NCBI RefSeq assembly: GCF_000255295.1
Contig: NC_017030.1
Coordinates: 4,588,001 to 4,652,000 of the forward strand
Source of the DNA: Corallococcus coralloides DSM 2259
GTDB taxonomy: Bacteria > Myxococcota > Myxococcia > Myxococcales > Myxococcaceae
Direction of reading: 5' to 3'
DNA: 64,000 nucleotides
The notes beneath the pieces were generated by a model that was not told where the DNA came from, ran no database searches, and saw only the letters and a list, made by a program, of their open reading frames with translations. Numbering within the stretch: the stretch's first letter is position 1; each line of letters begins with the position of its first letter. Positions 13,680 to 27,480 of the stretch are shown here, piece by piece. The position numbers were made by a program, and so were the translations under genes.

Positions 13680-13835
13680 GAAGACATTCTGGAGCGCATG
13701 AAAAGCTTTGCCGTGCAAGCTGTCAGTGACGAAACCCGAGCCGGAACCGTGACGTCTGATTCTGGCCAGGGTCCCTGTCCCCACGGCCCTATCCGCACGG
13801 GTTGAAGCGGACTTCCCCCTGCGCTACACCGCTCC

Positions 13836-15864
<2,029 letters not shown>

Positions 15865-18879: not shown

Positions 18880-19995
18880 TCAACCGCGAGCCATCGTCCC
18901 CCGGTCGTAGCGGAAGGGGGTGAGGTCCACCGAGGGCTTCTCCCCCAGCACGGCCTGGGCGACGAGCTTCGCGGTGATGGGGGCGAGCAGGATGCCGTTG
19001 CGGAAGTGGCCGGTGGCGAGGAACAGGCCGGGTGTAGGGCCCTCTCCGATGTACGGCAGCGCGTCCTGGGTCCACGGGCGGAAGCCGGCCCAGGTCTCCG
19101 TGATGGGCGCGCTGGCCAGGTCCGGGCACAGCTGCAGGGCCATGTCGAGGATCCGCGCCAGCCCCGCCGCGGTCACCTGCTTGTCGAAGCCCACGTGCTC
19201 CATGGTGCTCCCGGCGATGATCCGCCCATCCGCGCGCGGCACCAGGTAGCCCTTGGCGGACGTCACCACGCGCTCCAGCAGGGGCAGCCGCGTCTGCAGC
19301 TGCACCATCTGTCCTCGCGCCGGGCGCACCGCCTGCGCCGACACGCCCGCACCCTGGACCAGGGAGGACCACGAGCCCGCCGCCAGCACCACGGCGTCCG
19401 CGCGGAGCACCTCGCCGTCCAGGTCCACGCCCACCGCGCGGCCGTGCTCGTGCACCACGCCGCGCACGTAGCCGCTCTTGAACACCGTGCCCACGCGCGC
19501 GGCGGCCATGGTGAGCGCGCGCACGAGGAGCCGGTTGTCGACCTGGTGATCATCCGGGAAGTGCGCGGCGCCCACGGCGGCGGGGGACAGGTGGGACTCC
19601 AGCTCGCGCGCGGCCTTGCTGTCGAGCAGCTCGGCGCGCAGCCCCATGCCGTGCTGCCAGCCCACGGTGGACTCCACGTGATGGAGATCCGACTCGTCGA
19701 ACGCGACGCGAAGCAGGCCGCACGGCCGGTACGCGATGTCCACGCCGGAGAGCTCGCGCAGCTCCGCGGCGAAGCTTCCATAGAGGGCGCGGCTGCGCAG
19801 GCACAGCTCGAAGAAGGGGCCCGGTCCTTCGGACTCCCACTGGGGCGCGAGGATGCCGCCCGCGGCGCTGGAGGCTTCGGCTCCGGGGATGGAGCGCTCC
19901 AGCACCGTCACGCGCGCGCCCGCCTGCCGGAGTTTCAGCGCGATGCCACAGCCCATCACGCCACCGCCCACCACGAGGACGTCGGAGGTTGCCAT
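18880..19995 (-). CDS. thiO: Glycine oxidase ThiO
   Basis: The start at 19995 (MATSDVLVVGGGVMGCGIAL) places the FAD-binding GxGxxG motif at the very N-terminus, normal for the DAO family; the open frame extends 14 residues further without support. The 371-residue length fits ThiO. Signatures include the DAO-family GILAPQWE region, RPARGQMVQL, and the C-terminal ETWAGFRPWTQDALPYIGEG plus TGHFRNGILLAP. ThiO oxidises glycine to dehydroglycine, the precursor for the thiazole ring of thiamine. No thiS/thiG genes are next to it. It is divergent from the his leader across about 100 bases and lacks a visible riboswitch, unlike thiC. Another amino-acid oxidase specificity is possible but less likely. 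Confidence 0.88.
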   Translation of the reverse strand: MATSDVLVVGGGVMGCGIALKLRQAGARVTVLERSIPGAEASSAAGGILAPQWESEGPGPFFELCLRSRALYGSFAAELRELSGVDIAYRPCGLLRVAFDESDLHHVESTVGWQHGMGLRAELLDSKAARELESHLSPAAVGAAHFPDDHQVDNRLLVRALTMAAARVGTVFKSGYVRGVVHEHGRAVGVDLDGEVLRADAVVLAAGSWSSLVQGAGVSAQAVRPARGQMVQLQTRLPLLERVVTSAKGYLVPRADGRIIAGSTMEHVGFDKQVTAAGLARILDMALQLCPDLASAPITETWAGFRPWTQDALPYIGEGPTPGLFLATGHFRNGILLAPITAKLVAQAVLGEKPSVDLTPFRYDRGTMARG

Positions 19996-20060
19996 GCGCC
20001 GCTTGTGCTCAAGCGAGCACGGGTTTGCAAGCGTCAAGACAGGCCATGACCCGGGGTGAC

Positions 20061-20089
20061 TTGACGGTGAGGCCTCCGGTCGTTAACCC
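20061..20089 (+). promoter_or_regulatory. Candidate promoter of the histidine operon
   Basis: TTGACG (20061-20066) and TAACCC (20084-20089) are 17 bases apart. The predicted transcription start would fall next to the GTG at 20097 that opens the leader peptide. The -10 is a poor match, so this is tentative. Confidence 0.35.
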
Positions 20090-20096
20090 TAGGGCC

Positions 20097-20189
20097 GTGC
20101 GTTCCACGTCCCTGCATCATCACCATGCGCATCATCGGCCGGCCCATGACGGGACCGTTCGCCGCGCGCATGCCTGGGTGACGCACTAG
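20097..20189 (+). CDS. hisL: His leader peptide (histidine-operon attenuator)
   Basis: This 30-codon frame from GTG 20097 to TAG 20187-20189 contains nine histidine codons. They run CAT-CAT-CAC-CAT at 20115-20126, CAT-CAT at 20130-20135, then single ones at 20145, 20169 and 20184. Such a density just upstream of hisG, followed 35 bases later by an intrinsic terminator, is the hallmark of a ribosome-stalling leader. When charged tRNA-His is scarce the ribosome should stall in the His run and prevent terminator formation. In-frame alternatives begin at ATG 20046 or GTG 20067, and the His run is the same in all. No good Shine-Dalgarno precedes the GTG, so the start is uncertain and a leaderless mRNA is possible. 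Confidence 0.8.
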   Translation: MRSTSLHHHHAHHRPAHDGTVRRAHAWVTH

Positions 20190-20224
20190 AACGCACCCAC
20201 TTCCGGCAGATGCCGCAGTGATCG

Positions 20225-20255
20225 AAGGCCCGTCCCCCCAGGACGGGCCTTTTTT
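20225..20255 (+). terminator. Attenuator (intrinsic terminator) before hisG
   Basis: AAGGCCCGTCC (20225-20235) and GGACGGGCCTT (20241-20251) form an 11-bp perfect stem with a 5-base loop, followed by a T-run to 20255. Its 5' arm CCCGTC (20229-20234) can instead pair with GACGGG (20148-20153) inside the leader gene, a candidate antiterminator. CATGCGC (20124-20130) and GCGCATG (20166-20172) give a candidate early hairpin overlapping the His codons. Confidence 0.9.
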
Positions 20256-20288
20256 CGTTTCCGCCACCGCAGTCCCCCGAGCCCACCC

Positions 20289-21146
20289 ATGTTGAAGATT
20301 GCCCTGCCCAACAAAGGACGTCTGTCCGAGGAAGTGCGCGAGCTGTTCAACGACGCGGGCCTGGAGGTGCGCGCTCGGGGCGAGCGGGCCCTCACCGCAT
20401 CGCTGGGCGGCGAGTTCGAAGCCATCTTCGTCCGCGCCCAGGACATCCCGGAGTTCGTCGCGGATGGCGCCGCGCAGGCGGGCGTCACCGGCTGGGATCT
20501 GGTGAACGAGGCCGGGCGCGAGCTGGAGCCGCTGATGGACCTGGAGTTCGGCCGCTGCCGGTTGGTGGTGGCCGCGCGCGACGAGAGTGGCATCTCCCGC
20601 GTGGAGGACGTGAAGGAGGGGATGCGGGTGGCCTCCTGCTTCCCCCGGCTGACGCAGGCCTTCTTCCAGCAGCGAGGGCAGAAGGTGACAGTGGTGCCGG
20701 TGAGCGGCGCGGCGGAGATCGCTCCGCACCTGGGCATCGCGGACATCGTGGTGGACCTCACGTCCACGGGGTCCACGCTGAAGATGAACGGCCTCAAGGA
20801 AGTGGCCACCGTGCTGGAGTCGAGCGCCCGGCTGGTGGCGTATCCGCGCAATGACTCGGAGGCCCGGCGCGCGCTGGAGGAGCTGACGCAGGCGCTGGGG
20901 TCGGTGCTGGCGGCGCGCGGGCGGCGCTACCTGATGGCCAACGTCCCGAAGACGTCCCTGGAGCAGGTGCGCGAAGTGCTGCCCGGCCTCAACGGCCCCA
21001 CGGTGGTGGACGTGATGAACGGGGGGCACTTCGTCGCGGTGCACGCGGTGGTCTCGTCGCGGAACCTCTACCGCACGGTCAACGCGCTGAAGGCGCTGGG
21101 CGGGCAGGGCATCCTCGTCACGCGCATCGAGAGGTTGATGGCATGA
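20289..21146 (+). CDS. hisG: ATP phosphoribosyltransferase, long form (HisG)
   Basis: HisG condenses ATP and PRPP, the first and feedback-controlled step of histidine synthesis. The 285-residue length, with an N-terminal catalytic part (LKIALPNKGRLSEEVRELFN) and a C-terminal ACT-like regulatory part (SLEQVREVLPGLNGPTVVDV), marks the long, HisZ-independent form. The PRPP-binding loop VDLTSTGSTLKMNGLK is present around residue 160. It is the first structural gene after the attenuator. The stop overlaps the hisD start by four bases (ATGA). Confidence 0.96.
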   Translation: MLKIALPNKGRLSEEVRELFNDAGLEVRARGERALTASLGGEFEAIFVRAQDIPEFVADGAAQAGVTGWDLVNEAGRELEPLMDLEFGRCRLVVAARDESGISRVEDVKEGMRVASCFPRLTQAFFQQRGQKVTVVPVSGAAEIAPHLGIADIVVDLTSTGSTLKMNGLKEVATVLESSARLVAYPRNDSEARRALEELTQALGSVLAARGRRYLMANVPKTSLEQVREVLPGLNGPTVVDVMNGGHFVAVHAVVSSRNLYRTVNALKALGGQGILVTRIERLMA

Positions 21147-22444
21147 GCGCCTCCATCCTCAAGTACCAGGGCGCATTGTCCTCGCTGGAGCCTGACGCGC
21201 AGCGGAGGCTGTTGGCCCGCACGGGGGAGTCGGATGCCCTGGTGGCTTCCCGTGTCCAGGCACTCATTGCCCGGGTCCGCACGGAAGGTGACCGGGCCCT
21301 CTTCGACTTCGCGCGGGAGTTCGACCGCGTGGAGCTGGCGGCCCTGGAGGTTCCGCGTGAACGGTGGAACGCGGCGTTGGAGTCGATTCCCTCCGACGTG
21401 CGCGAGGCACTGACCCGTGCGGCGCGCAACATCGCCCGGGCTCATGCGGCGCAGCGGCCCCAGTCCATCGAAGTGGAGACGGAGCCCGGGGTCATCGTGG
21501 GGCGCCGGCCGGATCCGCTGAGCCGCGTCGGTGTGTATGCCCCTGGCGGCCGGGCGGTGTACCCCAGCAGCGTGCTCATGGGCGTGGTCCCCGCGAAGGT
21601 CGCGGGCGTGGGCGAGATCACCGTCTGCTCGCCGCCAGGGCCGGATGGCTTGCCTGGCGCGGGTGTGCTCGCGGCGGCAGCGCTCGCGGGCGCGGATCGG
21701 GTGTTCGCATTGGGCGGTGCGGGCGCGGTGGCCGCGCTGGCCTACGGCACCCAGAGCGTTCCCCGCGTGGACCGCATCGTCGGACCGGGCAACGCGTACG
21801 TAGCGGCCGCGAAGCTTCAAGTGGTGGACGCCGTCGCCATCGACGCGCCCGCGGGCCCGAGCGAAATCCTGGTGGTCGCCGACGCGAGCGCCCGTCCGGA
21901 CGCCGTGGCGCGTGAGTTGCTGGCCCAGGCGGAGCACGACCCCGAGGCCTGCTGCGTGGCGCTGGTGGTGGGCGCTCCGCTGGCGCAGGCGGTGCGGGAC
22001 GCGGTGGAGCAGCAGGCCCGCATCGCCCGGCGTGGCGACATCGTCCTTTCCGCGCTGGGGAGCCGGGGCGCGGTGCTGCGCATCGATTCGCTGGAGGAGG
22101 CGTGGCCCTTCGTCGCGGAGTTCGCTCCGGAGCACCTGCTGCTCGCGACGGCGAAGCCCTCGGAGGACCTGGCGCGGGTTCGAAACGCGGGCACGGTGTT
22201 CGTGGGACAGCGCGCGTCGGTGGCCTTTGGTGACTACCTCACCGGTGCGAACCACGTGCTGCCCACGGCGGGACTGGCCCGGGCGTACTCGGGGCTGAGC
22301 GTGCTGGACTTCTACCGGTGGACCACGTGGCAACGCGTGACACCGGAAGCGGCGGCGGCGATGGCGGACGACGTGGGGACGCTGGCGGACAGCGAGGGCC
22401 TCTTCGCTCACGCGGCCGCGGCTCGGGCCTGGAGGGTGCCGTGA
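21143..22444 (+). CDS. hisD: Histidinol dehydrogenase HisD
   Basis: HisD oxidises L-histidinol to L-histidine in two NAD-dependent steps, the last reactions of the pathway. The 433-residue length is standard. Conserved stretches include YAPGGRAVYPSSVLMGVVPA, VDRIVGPGNAYVAAAK, IDAPAGPSEILVVAD, LAQAEHDPEACC and LTGANHVLPTAGLAR with the zinc-ligand and catalytic His/Glu residues. The start overlaps the hisG stop by 4 bases, and the stop overlaps the GTG of hisC by 4 bases, indicating translational coupling through the operon. Confidence 0.97.
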   Translation: MSASILKYQGALSSLEPDAQRRLLARTGESDALVASRVQALIARVRTEGDRALFDFAREFDRVELAALEVPRERWNAALESIPSDVREALTRAARNIARAHAAQRPQSIEVETEPGVIVGRRPDPLSRVGVYAPGGRAVYPSSVLMGVVPAKVAGVGEITVCSPPGPDGLPGAGVLAAAALAGADRVFALGGAGAVAALAYGTQSVPRVDRIVGPGNAYVAAAKLQVVDAVAIDAPAGPSEILVVADASARPDAVARELLAQAEHDPEACCVALVVGAPLAQAVRDAVEQQARIARRGDIVLSALGSRGAVLRIDSLEEAWPFVAEFAPEHLLLATAKPSEDLARVRNAGTVFVGQRASVAFGDYLTGANHVLPTAGLARAYSGLSVLDFYRWTTWQRVTPEAAAAMADDVGTLADSEGLFAHAAAARAWRVP

Positions 22445-23478
22445 TTCCATTCCGCGAGACGTACCGGGACATCCCTTTGTACTCCCCGGCGAAGAAGCCG
22501 TGCCGGGTGGACCTGAGCGACAACACCAACCTCTTCGGCGCACCTCCGTCCGCGGATCGCGTGCTGCGGGAGGAGGGCTTCCTTCGGCTGGCTCGCTATC
22601 CCGCCGGATATGCGCCGGACCTCAAGCGCGCAGTGGCAGCCTACGCGGGCGTCGCGGTGGAGAACGTGACGACGGGCTGCGGCTCGGACGACGTCATCGA
22701 CTGTGCGCTGCGGGCCTTCCTGGAGCCCGGGGACGCGGTGGCCTTTCCGGATCCCACGTTCGTGATGGTGCCCATGTTCGCCCGGCTGAGCGCGCTCAAG
22801 CCCGTGCCCGTGCCGCTGCGCTCGGACCATGGGCTGGACGTGGACGGCCTGCTCGCCACGGGGGCGAAGCTCATCTACGTGTGCACGCCGAACAACCCCA
22901 CCGGCACGGTGGCCTCGCGCGCGGCGCTGGAGCGGCTGGTGGACTCCGCTTCGGGCGTGGTGCTTGTTGATCAGGCCTATGTGGAGTTCACGCGGGGCGG
23001 GGACTTCCTCGACTTGGCGCGGACGCGGCCCAACGTGCTGGTGACGCGCACGATGTCCAAGGCGTTCGGACTCGCGGGCCTGCGGGTGGGCTGGGGCGTC
23101 GGGGCGCCGTCGCTGGTGGCGGAGGTGGAGAAGGCCCGGGGGCCCTACAAGCACACGGCGCTGGGCGAGGCCGTGGCGGTGGCCGCGCTCACGGATGACG
23201 TCGCGTGGATGGAGGCCTGCGCGGCGGAGGCGGTGGTGAACCGCGAGCGGCTGCGCGGCGCCTTGAAGGCGCTGGGGCTGGAGCCGCTCCCTTCGGAGGG
23301 CAACTTCCTCCTCGTCCCCGTGCCGGAGGCGCGGCAGGTGGGCGAGGCGCTGCGGGAGCGCAACGTGAACGTGCGGGTGTTCGAAGGGCTCACGGGCGTG
23401 GGCGATGCGCTGCGCATCGGCTGCGGTCCCTGGCCGATGATGGCTTCAGCGCTGAAGGCCCTGAAGGAGGTGCTGTGA
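22441..23478 (+). CDS. hisC: Histidinol-phosphate aminotransferase HisC
   Basis: HisC is the PLP enzyme transferring an amino group from glutamate to imidazole acetol phosphate. The GTG at 22441 overlaps the hisD stop by 4 bases; the frame upstream is open but lies inside hisD. The 345-residue protein has VDLSDNTNLFGAPP near the N-terminus, CTPNNPTG in the middle, and TMSKAFGLAGLRVGWGV with the PLP-binding Lys. The C-terminus DALRIGCGPWPMM carries the phosphate-binding Arg region. The stop shares one base with the hisH start. Confidence 0.95.
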   Translation: MIPFRETYRDIPLYSPAKKPCRVDLSDNTNLFGAPPSADRVLREEGFLRLARYPAGYAPDLKRAVAAYAGVAVENVTTGCGSDDVIDCALRAFLEPGDAVAFPDPTFVMVPMFARLSALKPVPVPLRSDHGLDVDGLLATGAKLIYVCTPNNPTGTVASRAALERLVDSASGVVLVDQAYVEFTRGGDFLDLARTRPNVLVTRTMSKAFGLAGLRVGWGVGAPSLVAEVEKARGPYKHTALGEAVAVAALTDDVAWMEACAAEAVVNRERLRGALKALGLEPLPSEGNFLLVPVPEARQVGEALRERNVNVRVFEGLTGVGDALRIGCGPWPMMASALKALKEVL

Positions 23479-24071
23479 TGCGGGTGACCCTGTTCGACTA
23501 TGGCGCGGGCAACCTGCACTCGCTGATCAAGGCGCTGGCCACCACACCCGGCGCGGACGTGCGTGTGCAGGAGGATCCACTGCGCGCGCTGGATACCGAC
23601 GTCCTGGTGCTTCCCGGCGTGGGAGCATTCGGTTCGGCGGCGGCGCGGCTCGCTCCGGGACGCGAGGCGATGCGCAAGGCGCTGGATGCCGGCCTGCCGT
23701 GCCTGGGCATCTGCCTGGGCATGCAGCTGCTCTTCGAGGAGAGCGACGAGGGGGCAGGGCAGGGACTCGGCTACTTCCCGGGCCGGGTGACCCGGCTGGC
23801 CGCGCGCCATGTTCCTCAAATTGGCTGGAACGACATTGAGGAGGACCGGGCGCTCCAGTCCGCGCGCTTGTCCACCGTGTACTACGCGCACAGCTTTGTC
23901 TGCCGCGCCGTGGATGCGCGCGAAGTGGTGGGCTGGACCACCCACGAGGGCGACCGGTTCCCCGCCTCCGTGCGGCGCGGCAACGTGCTGGGCGTGCAGT
24001 TCCACCCGGAGAAGTCCTCCCACGCGGGCGTGCGCTTCGTGCAGGCATTCCTCCAGGAGGTGTCCTCATGA
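23478..24071 (+). CDS. hisH: Imidazole glycerol phosphate synthase glutaminase subunit HisH
   Basis: HisH releases ammonia from glutamine and passes it to HisF. The ATG overlaps the hisC stop by one base, giving 197 residues. The triad of a class I glutamine amidotransferase is visible: the nucleophile in CLGICLGMQLLFEES, and His and Glu in GVQFHPEKSSHAG. The N-terminal VTLFDYGAGNLHSLIKAL and the loop LPGVGAFGSAAARL are typical of HisH. The stop overlaps hisA by 4 bases. Confidence 0.95.
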   Translation: MRVTLFDYGAGNLHSLIKALATTPGADVRVQEDPLRALDTDVLVLPGVGAFGSAAARLAPGREAMRKALDAGLPCLGICLGMQLLFEESDEGAGQGLGYFPGRVTRLAARHVPQIGWNDIEEDRALQSARLSTVYYAHSFVCRAVDAREVVGWTTHEGDRFPASVRRGNVLGVQFHPEKSSHAGVRFVQAFLQEVSS

Positions 24072-24784
24072 TCGCCATCCCGGCCATCGACCTGAGGGAA
24101 GGGGCGTGCGTGCAGCTCGTGGGGGGCTCCTACGATGCGGAGCGCGTGCGCGTGAATGATCCGCTGGATGCCTTGAAGCAGTGGCTCGCGTTGGGCTTCC
24201 GCACGTTCCACGTCGTGGACCTGGACGCGGCGCTGGGCAAGGGCTCCAACGCGGATGTGGTGGCCCGGCTGGTGTCGCATGCCCCGGGCCTGACCTTCAC
24301 GGTGGGCGGCGGTGTTCGTGAGGCGTCGCGCGTGGAGGCGGTGCTCGCGGGCGGGGCGTCCTCGGTCGTCGTGGGGACCCGCGCCATCGAGGACCTGGCC
24401 TGGCTCACCGAGGTCGCGGAGCGCTTCCCCGGCCGCGTGGTGGTCGCCGCGGACGTGAAGGGCCGCGAGGTCGTGACGCGCGGCTGGACGTCCGGCAGCG
24501 CTCGCGACATCCGCGACGTGCTGTCCGCGCTGGAGCCCCTGCCGCTGGGCGGGATGCTTGTCACCGCGGTGCACAAGGAGGGGCAGCTGGGCGGCGTGGA
24601 CCTGCCCTTGATGGAGGAGGTGGCCCGTTCGAGCCGGCACCGGCTCTACGCCTCCGGCGGCGTGACGACGCTCGAGGACCTGCGCTCGCTGGCGAAGGTG
24701 GGCGCATACGGAGCGGTGGTGGGCATGGCGCTGTACACGGGTCGGTTGGATGCGCGCGCGGTCGCGCGGGAGTTCACGCAATGA
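24068..24784 (+). CDS. hisA: ProFAR isomerase HisA
   Basis: HisA isomerises ProFAR to PRFAR; it is a 238-residue beta/alpha-barrel. The N-terminal IPAIDLREGACVQLVGGSYD contains the catalytic Asp, and the phosphate sites are VGGGVREASRVEAVLAGGAS and YASGGVTTLEDLRSLAKVGA. The second catalytic Asp lies in AADVKGREVVTRGW. Both ends overlap neighbours by 4 bases. It is distinguished from the related HisF by these N-terminal and central motifs. Confidence 0.95.
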   Translation: MIAIPAIDLREGACVQLVGGSYDAERVRVNDPLDALKQWLALGFRTFHVVDLDAALGKGSNADVVARLVSHAPGLTFTVGGGVREASRVEAVLAGGASSVVVGTRAIEDLAWLTEVAERFPGRVVVAADVKGREVVTRGWTSGSARDIRDVLSALEPLPLGGMLVTAVHKEGQLGGVDLPLMEEVARSSRHRLYASGGVTTLEDLRSLAKVGAYGAVVGMALYTGRLDARAVAREFTQ

Positions 24785-25326
24785 GCACGGTCACCACGGT
24801 CGTCCGCGAAACGAAGGAGACCCAGGTCACGGTGGAGCTGGCGCGCGGAACCGGCGTGGCCCGGGTGGACACGGGCCTCAAGTTCTTCGACCACATGCTC
24901 GCCACGTTCGCGCGCTACGCGGGGCTGGACCTGACCCTGCACGCCCGCGGAGACCTGCGCCACCACCTGATGGAGGACGTGGCCATCACCCTGGGCACCG
25001 CCGTCCAGCGCGTCATCCCCGCCACCGCCGCGCGTTACGGCGAGCGCACCCTGCCCATGGATGACGCCCTGGTGCAGGCGTGCCTGGACGCAGGCGGGCG
25101 CTTCTACTACCGGGGCCCGTTGAAGAACCGGCTGTACGAGCACTGGATGCGCTCGTTCTGCGAGCACTCGCGCATCACGCTCCACCTGCGCGTGCTGCGC
25201 GGCAAGGACAGCCACCACCTCACCGAGGCGGCCTTCAAGGCGCTGGGGCTCGCGCTGCGCGACGCGATGGTGGACTCCGGCGTCGTCTTCAGCATGAAGG
25301 GCAGTGTCTCCCTGGAGGTGAAGTGA
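24781..25326 (+). CDS. hisB: Imidazoleglycerol-phosphate dehydratase HisB (divergent)
   Basis: This is a monofunctional dehydratase of 181 residues, slightly short for the family (commonly about 195-200). Family features are [20 protein letters not shown], the first metal site HHLMED (usual form DxHHTxED, so the Asp and Thr are replaced), [16 protein letters not shown] and the second site [20 protein letters not shown]. The stretch between residues 105 and 130 is unusual compared with well-known HisB proteins. The metal-ligand HHxxE cores are kept, and no other hisB is visible, so it is likely active. No phosphatase domain is fused; that role is probably taken by hisN. It overlaps hisA by 4 bases and hisF by one. 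Confidence 0.9.
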
Positions 25327-26087
25327 TGCTCCGCCGACGGATCATCGTCTGCCTGGACGTGAAGGGCGGCCGAGTGGTGAAGGGCGTCCAGTTCGAGGGC
25401 CTGCGCGACGTGGGCGACCCGGTGGAGCTGGCCCGGCGCTATGAGGAGGCGGGAGCGGACGAGGTGACCTTCCTGGACATCTCCGCGAGCGCCGAGGAGC
25501 GCCAGACGCTGTGGGACCTGGTCCAGCGTACCGCTGAGCGCCTCTTCATCCCACTCACGGTGGGCGGAGGCGTGCGCACCGTGGACGACGTGGGCCGCGC
25601 GCTGCGGGCCGGCGCGGACAAGGTGAGCATCAACTCCGCGGCCGTGGCCACGCCGGAGCTGCTCACCGGCTGCGCGGAGCGCTTCGGCGCCCAGTGCGTG
25701 GTGGCCAGCATCGACGCGAAGCGCGAGGGCGACCGCTACCGCGTCTATACGCACGGTGGCAGGCGGCCCACCGTCCTGGACGCCGTGGCCTGGGCGAAGG
25801 AGTGCGTCCGGCGCGGCGCGGGCGAGGTGCTGCTCACCAGCATCGACCGGGACGGGGCGCGCACGGGCTATGACCTGGACCTGACCCGCGCGGTGGCGGA
25901 GGCGGTGGACGTGCCCGTCATTGCCTCCGGGGGCGCGGGCCGCGCGGAGCACGTGCGCGATGCCCTGACCCTGGGCGCGGCGGACGCGGCGCTCGTCGCC
26001 GGCATCCTCCACGACGGCCTCACCACGGTGGGCGCCTTGAAGTCCCTGCTGAACGACAACGGCATCGCCATCCGGAGCACGACATGA
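25326..26087 (+). CDS. hisF: Imidazole glycerol phosphate synthase cyclase subunit HisF
   Basis: HisF cyclises PRFAR with ammonia from HisH to imidazole glycerol phosphate and AICAR. The ATG at 25326 overlaps the hisB stop by one base and gives 253 residues. The N-terminus [20 protein letters not shown] holds the catalytic Asp. [53 protein letters not shown] (second catalytic Asp) and [15 protein letters not shown] follow as expected for the barrel. It overlaps hisN by 4 bases. Confidence 0.96.
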
Positions 26088-26866
26088 ACGCGGACCCGCG
26101 AGACTTGATGGAGGCCGCCGCCGACGTGGCGCGCAAGGCCGGTGACGTGGCGCTGGACTTCTTCCGGCGCGGCATCGCCGTGGACACCAAGAGCGACGGC
26201 ACGCCCGTGACGGTGGCGGACCGCACCGCCGAGTGGACCGCTCGCGAATGGCTGGAGGCGCGCTTCCCCCAGGACGGCATCCTGGGCGAGGAGTTCGGCG
26301 AGTCCCGGCCGGGCGCGAAGCGCCGGTGGATATTGGATCCCATCGACGGCACGAAGACGTTCATCCGGGGCGTGCCGCTGTGGGGCACGCTGGTCGCGGT
26401 GGCGGAAGGGGAGACCATTCTCGCGGGCGCGGCCTACTTCCCGGCCGTGAACGAGCTGGTCGTCGCGTCGCCGGGCCTGGGCTGCTTCTGGAACGGCTCC
26501 GCGGCGCACGTGTCGGAGCAGGACTCGCTGGCGCAGGCCGTGGTGCTCGTCACCGATGAGCGCTTCCTCCAGAACCCCGCGAAGGGCGCGGCCTGGAAGG
26601 AGCTGTCCCGGCAGGCGTCCCTCTCCCGCACGTGGGGGGACTGCTACGGCTATCTCCTCGTCGCCACCGGCCGCGCGGAGGTCATGGTGGACGAAGGCCT
26701 GTCGCCCTGGGACGCGGCGGCCCTGCAGCCCATCATCGAGGAGGCGGGCGGCGTCTTCACCGACTGGAAGGGCACTCGCACGGCGTTCGGCGGTGACGGC
26801 ATCGCCACCAACGCGGCGCTGTCGCAGCGCGTGCGCGAGCTGCTGCGCACGGGAGTCCAGCCATGA
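26084..26866 (+). CDS. hisN: Histidinol-phosphatase HisN (inositol monophosphatase family)
   Basis: The 260-residue protein belongs to the metal-dependent inositol monophosphatase family. Motifs are [28 protein letters not shown] (metal-binding DPIDGT) and [18 protein letters not shown] (WDxAA). Its position inside the his operon, overlapping hisF and hisIE by 4 bases each, indicates the histidinol-phosphate phosphatase step, as described for HisN of actinobacteria and several other groups. This complements the lack of a phosphatase domain in hisB. Activity on other sugar phosphates cannot be excluded. Confidence 0.92.
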
Positions 26867-27480
26867 CGTTGGAGCTCTCCAGGCTCGACTTCGACAAGGG
26901 CCAGGGACTGGTGACGGTGGTGACGCAGGACGCGAGCACCGGCGACGTGCTGATGGTGGCGCACGCAGACCGCGAGGCGCTGGAGCGCACGCTCGCCACG
27001 GGCGAGATGCACTACCGCTCCCGCACGCGCGGCCTCTGGCACAAGGGCGCCACCAGCGGGAACACCCAGAAGGTCGTCTCCCTCACCGCGGACTGCGACG
27101 GAGACGCGGTGCTCGCACGCGTGCGCAAGGCCGGCCCCGCGTGCCACACCGGCGAGGAGACGTGCTTCGGCGAGGGCCGCTGGGACGCGCTCGCGCACCT
27201 GGACGCGACGCTCTCCGCCCGCGCGGCCGGCTCCCAACCCGAAGGCGCGAAGCCCAGCTACACCCGGCGCCTCCTGGAGGACCGGAACCTGCGCCTGAAG
27301 AAGGTGGGGGAGGAGGCCGCGGAGCTCGTCACCGCCTGCGCGGACGCGGACACGCACCGGGCCGCGGAAGAGGCCGCCGACGTGCTCTTCCACGCGCTCG
27401 TCGCGGTGCGGGCCCTGGGCGTGACGCTGGACGATGTGAAGGCCGTCCTCGCCGCCCGCGCACGTCCAAAATCACCCTGA
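26863..27480 (+). CDS. hisIE: Bifunctional phosphoribosyl-AMP cyclohydrolase / phosphoribosyl-ATP pyrophosphatase HisIE
   Basis: HisIE performs the second and third steps of the pathway. In the 205-residue protein the N-terminal cyclohydrolase (about 1-115) shows [20 protein letters not shown] and the zinc/magnesium site region [14 protein letters not shown] and [11 protein letters not shown]. The C-terminal pyrophosphatase (about 118-205) shows [20 protein letters not shown] and the E-x-x-D helix [18 protein letters not shown]. It is the last gene of the operon, overlapping hisN by four bases. No obvious terminator follows. Confidence 0.95.

Follow-up and report, generated by a model that had tools for sequence, protein, structure and literature searches.

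The his operon of Corallococcus coralloides DSM 2259 is preceded by a short histidine-rich reading frame and a terminator-like hairpin. Do these form a switch that senses histidine, and how would such a switch be read by the ribosome? The window (the whole stretch of DNA that was analysed, 64,000 nucleotides) comes from a complete genome of 10.08 Mb, whose HisG is 92–99% identical to that of the closest named relatives, Corallococcus. Pfam assignments yield a nine-gene operon, hisG-D-C-H-A-B-F-(inositol-phosphatase-like)-IE:

20289..21146, + strand: hisG, long form (HisG + HisG_C; PF01634 and PF08029)
21143..22444, + strand: hisD (PF00815)
22441..23478, + strand: hisC (PF00155; exact start inferred from the hisD overlap)
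23475..24071, + strand: hisH (PF00117; start inferred)
24068..24784, + strand: hisA (PF00977)
24781..25326, + strand: hisB, IGPD (PF00475)
25323..26087, + strand: hisF (PF00977; start inferred)
26084..26866, + strand: inositol-monophosphatase-like gene (PF00459)
26863..27480, + strand: hisIE (PF01502 and PF01503)

The inositol-monophosphatase-like gene at 26084..26866 probably encodes the missing histidinol-phosphate phosphatase (hisN), a role assigned by its position in the operon. The ATG of hisG has no recognisable Shine-Dalgarno sequence in 20270–20288. The gene upstream of the leader lies on the opposite strand, that is, it is divergent, and starts near 19995. Elsewhere in the window there is a TPP riboswitch at 13835–13947, + strand (Rfam RF00059, 75 bits).

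The region between the divergent gene and hisG contains the following elements:

20061..20066, + strand: TTGACG, -35 box of the promoter that serves the leader, 36 nt ahead of the GTG at 20097
20084..20089, + strand: candidate -10 box TAACCC at a 17-nt spacer, placed by its position relative to TTGACG
20097..20189, + strand: leader peptide ORF, 30 codons, from the GTG start to TAG at 20187–20189, probably leaderless (sequence, conservation, start-codon profile)
20115..20135, + strand: regulatory His codons HHHHAHH, proposed ribosome stalling site (the sole such run in the window)
20124..20130, + strand: strand 1, CATGCGC, partner of 20166–20172 when free of ribosome (fold, RNAalifold)
20148..20234, + strand: antiterminator, a predicted 87-nt end-to-end hairpin closed by GACGGG/CCCGTC (-41 to -42 kcal/mol; swap test)
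20166..20172, + strand: strand 2, GCGCATG, common to the 1:2 hairpin and the antiterminator (fold, RNAalifold)
20224..20252, + strand: intrinsic terminator hairpin (-22.7 kcal/mol; terminator scan, conservation, compensatory changes)
20250..20255, + strand: terminator T run (sequence)

The product of the leader ORF is VRSTSLHHHHAHHRPAHDGTVRRAHAWVTH. The first-pass annotation had described a 30-codon frame at 20097–20189 with nine His codons, six of them in the seven codons 20115–20135, an 11-bp perfect stem with a T run ahead of hisG, and an early hairpin between CATGCGC (20124–20130) and GCGCATG (20166–20172). All these coordinates are exact on the sequence, and RNAalifold also finds the early hairpin, with modest covariation, two pairs being changed on both sides. 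The perfect stem spans 20225–20235/20241–20251 and extends to 12 bp over 20224–20252 if one G-U pair is included.

Chance is a poor explanation for this arrangement. A run of at least six His in seven codons occurs in the 64-kb window, over all six frames, at 20115 only, and the mean over 40 shuffles is 0.0. The fold of the leader RNA has a z-score of -5.4 against dinucleotide shuffles, and a terminator-like hairpin with a T run just 5' of hisG has a chance expectation of 0.3 in the 500-bp region. As a whole, the pattern is well beyond what chance would give. The leader has a run of end-product codons, an intrinsic terminator before the first gene and a mutually exclusive antiterminator, the features of the attenuator class. 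Hence the his operon is very probably controlled by ribosome-mediated transcription attenuation, the leader peptide probably being made from a leaderless transcript. The same ribosome-mediated reading, proposed in the first pass, gains support from the His run, the terminator, the competing fold and their conservation in relatives.

The predicted course of events is as follows. Transcription would begin at the GTG at 20097 or no more than a few bases away, and the ribosome would load straight onto the 5' end. Under a shortage of histidyl-tRNA, it would stall at the His codons 20115–20135, covering strand 1; 20148–20234 could then fold as the long antiterminator, sequestering the 5' arm of the terminator, and the polymerase would continue into hisG. 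With ample histidine, the ribosome would reach the stop codon at 20187–20189 and cover the 5' half of the antiterminator hairpin, so the terminator 20224–20252 would form and the transcript would end after about 160 nt. If the leader is not translated, the 1:2 hairpin 20124–20130/20166–20172 would form first, again leading to termination. We infer stalling, read-through, the histidine response and the transcription start from the sequence parts, their conservation, the promoter-to-start spacing and the compensatory evolution of both competing hairpins, all of which are observed. Computed fold energies favour the terminator with the inner hairpin at equilibrium, -52.9 against -42.0 for the antiterminator; therefore the switch must be kinetic, and the order of events matters. 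Separately, the start of the leader, 20097–20104 (GTGCGTTC), is perfectly complementary to 20188–20195 (GAACGCAC), just past the stop codon; this pairing closes the whole leader in the full fold and is known here from Corallococcus.

For the comparative analysis, loci were sampled by class-wide HisG searches, fetched regions and a scan of named genomes, giving 119 distinct upstream regions, 71 from the Myxococcaceae and 48 from others. A covariance model built from the leader was run on 195 Myxococcota and 249 Gemmatimonadota genomes.

The antiterminator was noted in the first pass as a contact of GACGGG (20148–20153) with CCCGTC (20229–20234). The positions are right, but a 6-bp contact understates the structure, as these pairs close the hairpin 20148–20234. 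When the RNA upstream of 20147 is removed, which mimics a stalled ribosome, this segment folds into a single hairpin of about -41 kcal/mol, and in 114 of 114 relatives tested the corresponding segment closes end to end. The covariation count on the closing helix in the Gemmatimonadota shows no excess (163 of 500 shuffles reach the score); it is uninformative because these pairs are almost invariant, and the interior was therefore tested by an alignment-free swap. MAFFT-based RNAalifold on the antiterminator segment gave no double changes; for the Gemmatimonadota, poor alignment of the hairpin interior explains this. In the swap, 5' halves, into which the coding tail of the leader extends, are combined with noncoding 3' halves. 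With 26 Gemmatimonadota and Eisenbacteria sequences, thinned to less than 75% similarity, own halves give on average -26.1 kcal/mol against -21.9 kcal/mol for swapped ones, and none of 5000 permutations reaches this difference; the Myxococcaceae behave similarly (p = 0.003, n = 9, thinned to less than 85%). The proposal of mutually exclusive folds is thus borne out, at the level of sequence comparison, by the swap test and by the antiterminator sharing sequence with the leader ORF as well as with the terminator's 5' arm. The reading frame of the antiterminator arm varies: it is GAC GGG in most Myxococcaceae and xxG ACG GGT in the Gemmatimonadota, and the arm persists in the frame-shifted leaders L010 and L170. 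Across these frames, the arm is conserved as RNA.

The terminator is equally persistent. A strong hairpin with a T run is found in 116 of the 119 regions, its core mostly being CCCGTCC..GGACGGG; the other three (L068, L080, L178) are weak in the terminator test, having hairpins without a good T run. Compensatory stem changes, suggested earlier as a check, are present: 17 cells in each of the two alignments, and no shuffle is as high in either group. Just 5' of the terminator there is a motif CGCAGYGA at 20214–20221 (CGCAGTGA), strongly conserved in most Myxococcaceae. It is part of the 3' side of the antiterminator, yet is unusually invariant.

The start of the leader deserves separate consideration. 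Across three phyla, 113 of the 119 regions have TTGAC at a distance of 34–39 nt from the start codon, on its 5' side: 68 of 71 Myxococcaceae, where 36 nt is the most frequent spacing, and 45 of 48 others. In the Myxococcaceae, the profile anchored at the start codon has a conserved TA at -13/-12. Of the 71 Myxococcaceae regions, 62 start the leader with GTG and 9 with ATG, the T and G of the codon being invariant; all 48 others use ATG. Given the TTGAC spacing and the standard promoter geometry, transcription should begin no more than a few bases from the start codon, so that translation of the leader probably takes place on a leaderless transcript; the earlier suggestion of a leaderless peptide thus receives comparative support. 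An attenuator transcribed from further upstream, with a conventional 5' untranslated region, seems unlikely. It would fit the frame being open far upstream in Corallococcus, and a sigma-70 scan with an E. coli-style consensus finds no promoter site here, the -10 box being weak by that rule. Against it stand the recurrence of TTGAC at the same distance in three phyla, the lack of a Shine-Dalgarno-like profile 5' of the start codon in the aligned regions, in-frame stops at most 10 codons upstream of the start in 16 of the 119 regions, and the same 36-nt spacing in a leader upstream of thrS.

The latter was recovered as a weak match to the covariance model (G000:C1:7173857-7173957) and is a Thr-codon-rich leader (VNLVIHTTATTTTTASAG...) 5' of thrS. 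It occupies L212:301-384 (G000:C1:7173857-7173940) and is also seen in L214, L226-L231 and L233-L235. TTGAC is exactly 36 nt upstream of its GTG, a spacing shared by those other Corallococcus genomes that were checked and by several more Myxococcaceae genera (g3 and g19). Between the leader and thrS there is a conserved GC-rich hairpin without a clear T run and with a GGCGGG/CCCGCC alternative. Judging by these sequence features, the Myxococcaceae seem to have a second element resembling a leaderless attenuator. The other weak model matches looked like noise where inspected. In the same genome, the stretches scanned at two anthranilate-synthase-type genes, four acetolactate-synthase-like genes and a leuA-like gene contain no comparable leader.

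Beside its role in cis, the terminated leader RNA of about 160 nt, or the peptide, could also act in trans. The general layout, a leaderless attenuator RNA, is that of rnTrpL of Sinorhizobium (PMC7298713), whose leader RNA or peptide is reported to act in trans; for the his leader we regard such an additional role as improbable.

How far does the attenuator extend? Wherever a Myxococcaceae locus encodes a HisG of about 67% identity or more, a His run precedes hisG, typically as HHHHAHH, and all members of the family with the element have at least five His per eight codons. The run is also present in nearly all loci of the Gemmatimonadota and Candidatus Eisenbacteria, typically as HHHAHHxHGPTGRG, with a few loci having four His in eight codons instead of at least five; the hisG-hisD-hisC order recurs there in loci of sufficient length. 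The first pass had named disappearance of the His run or terminator stem in close relatives as grounds for rejecting the attenuator. This is not what is seen: the His run, a terminator-like hairpin, the start codon and the antiterminator arm are all kept in essentially every Myxococcaceae genome whose long-form hisG is orthologous, and conservation reaches beyond the phylum. At loci of other families of the same order the His run is absent, and their HisG is of the short form, about 38% identical.

The covariance model gives a consistent picture. It matches at hisG in 71 of the 195 Myxococcota genomes, all of them Myxococcaceae and together making up all genomes of the family with this long-form hisG; the weakest true match has E = 7.4e-9, and the next class starts from E = 3.5e-5. 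With strict filters and a cut-off of E <= 1e-6, the model also matches in 78 of 249 Gemmatimonadota genomes, and the best ten of the 78 all precede hisG. The element is carried by dozens of Gemmatimonadota genomes and some Eisenbacteria. In one of the Gemmatimonadota with a split operon (G292, contig G292:C210), the leader occurs twice, as L241 and L242, one copy being 5' of hisG and the other, about 9.5 kb away, 5' of hisC. To judge from this arrangement, the attenuator seems to have been duplicated along with the split.

The HisG tree, which leaves the order of the deep branches open and in which the Myxococcus row L141 is wrongly labelled 'gem', groups the Myxococcaceae with the Gemmatimonadota and Eisenbacteria, apart from another family of their own order. 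Together with the shared leader, this suggests that the operon may have spread horizontally with its switch.

Two more observations concern the genomes sampled. About 20 of 96 Myxococcaceae genomes lack both hisG and hisB (G008-G010, G012, G043, G044, G046, G050-G052, G090-G092 and others), many of them being more than 95% complete; histidine synthesis has probably been lost repeatedly in these lineages. The his locus of L114, titled 'Comamonas sp. KCTC 72670', is Myxococcus-like, and that of L159, titled 'Candidatus Kuenenia stuttgartiensis', is Gemmatimonadota-like; both are probably mislabelled or misbinned.

The same comparison bears on two readings that dispense with attenuation. The ORF might encode a functional small His-rich protein, for example a metal-binding one, the hairpin being incidental, and the peptide sequence is indeed conserved in the Myxococcaceae; however, the length of the peptide, the frame of its tail and the sequence after the His run vary among relatives while the RNA elements persist, every copy whose position was checked precedes his genes, and the terminator sits between the ORF and hisG, which makes this explanation very improbable. 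Equally improbable is a plain intergenic terminator or insulator with no translational regulation: the hairpin is indeed a strong intrinsic terminator, but with the upstream gene divergent it ends no upstream transcript, and the His-rich ORF and the competing fold are always present.

We lean towards regarding the attenuators of the Myxococcota, Gemmatimonadota and Eisenbacteria as a distinct leaderless ribosome-mediated class that spread with the long-form-HisG operon, was duplicated when the operon split, is paralleled at thrS and needs ribosomes to initiate on the emerging 5' end. If so, these phyla would couple transcription and translation at the leader. Indeed, attenuation needs a ribosome close behind the RNA polymerase, and therefore a conserved attenuator is a natural test of such coupling, genetically tractable, for example, in Myxococcus xanthus. 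A textbook control mechanism is thereby extended to phyla for which no report was found, and is tied to leaderless translation. The family is ready for a covariance model, of which Rfam has none.

The Rfam scans, also at a relaxed threshold, matched no leader family usefully: His_leader (RF00514) has no match at the gathering score or at E <= 5, and the T-box has none in the window or in a sensitive local scan. The first-pass annotation knew of no his attenuation in myxobacteria, and our literature search for a his attenuator in Myxococcus, other myxobacteria or Gemmatimonas likewise found none in its coverage, which excluded subscription papers and the Lopatovskaya et al. 2010 survey. Ribosome-mediated attenuation and leaderless leader peptides are already known; the apparent novelty lies in the lineages, in a his attenuator that is leaderless and in an element undetected by any Rfam model.

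Among known systems, his attenuators are described for the Proteobacteria and some Firmicutes (PMC9413887), and have not been found in the Actinobacteria (PMC1262725). The Firmicutes candidates (the Bacillus cereus group, Peptostreptococcaceae and Lutispora, Erysipelotrichales) similarly have a His leader peptide, a terminator and an antiterminator 5' of his operons, but they belong to other phyla and have three to five His codons per run, a leaderless arrangement being unmentioned in the passages concerned (PMC9413887). The Corynebacterium ilvB, trpE, leuA and aroF leaders also encode peptides with amino-acid codons, but differ in operons and phylum; the ilvB peptide, according to the title of Morbach et al. 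2000 (cited in PMC4046766), is formed without a ribosome binding site. The Sinorhizobium meliloti trpL attenuator RNA, rnTrpL, starts with the ATG of the leader peptide and hence is leaderless (PMC7298713), as is predicted here, but it is alphaproteobacterial and senses Trp, not His. Similar in design is hisL of E. coli and Salmonella (RF00514), with a run of His codons in a short ORF and mutually exclusive antiterminator and terminator 5' of hisG. Compared with it, the Corallococcus leader is longer, its start is probably leaderless, and its His codons are interrupted by Ala. Enteric his antitermination is generally described as a series of helices, whereas here a single long 2:3 antiterminator is predicted.
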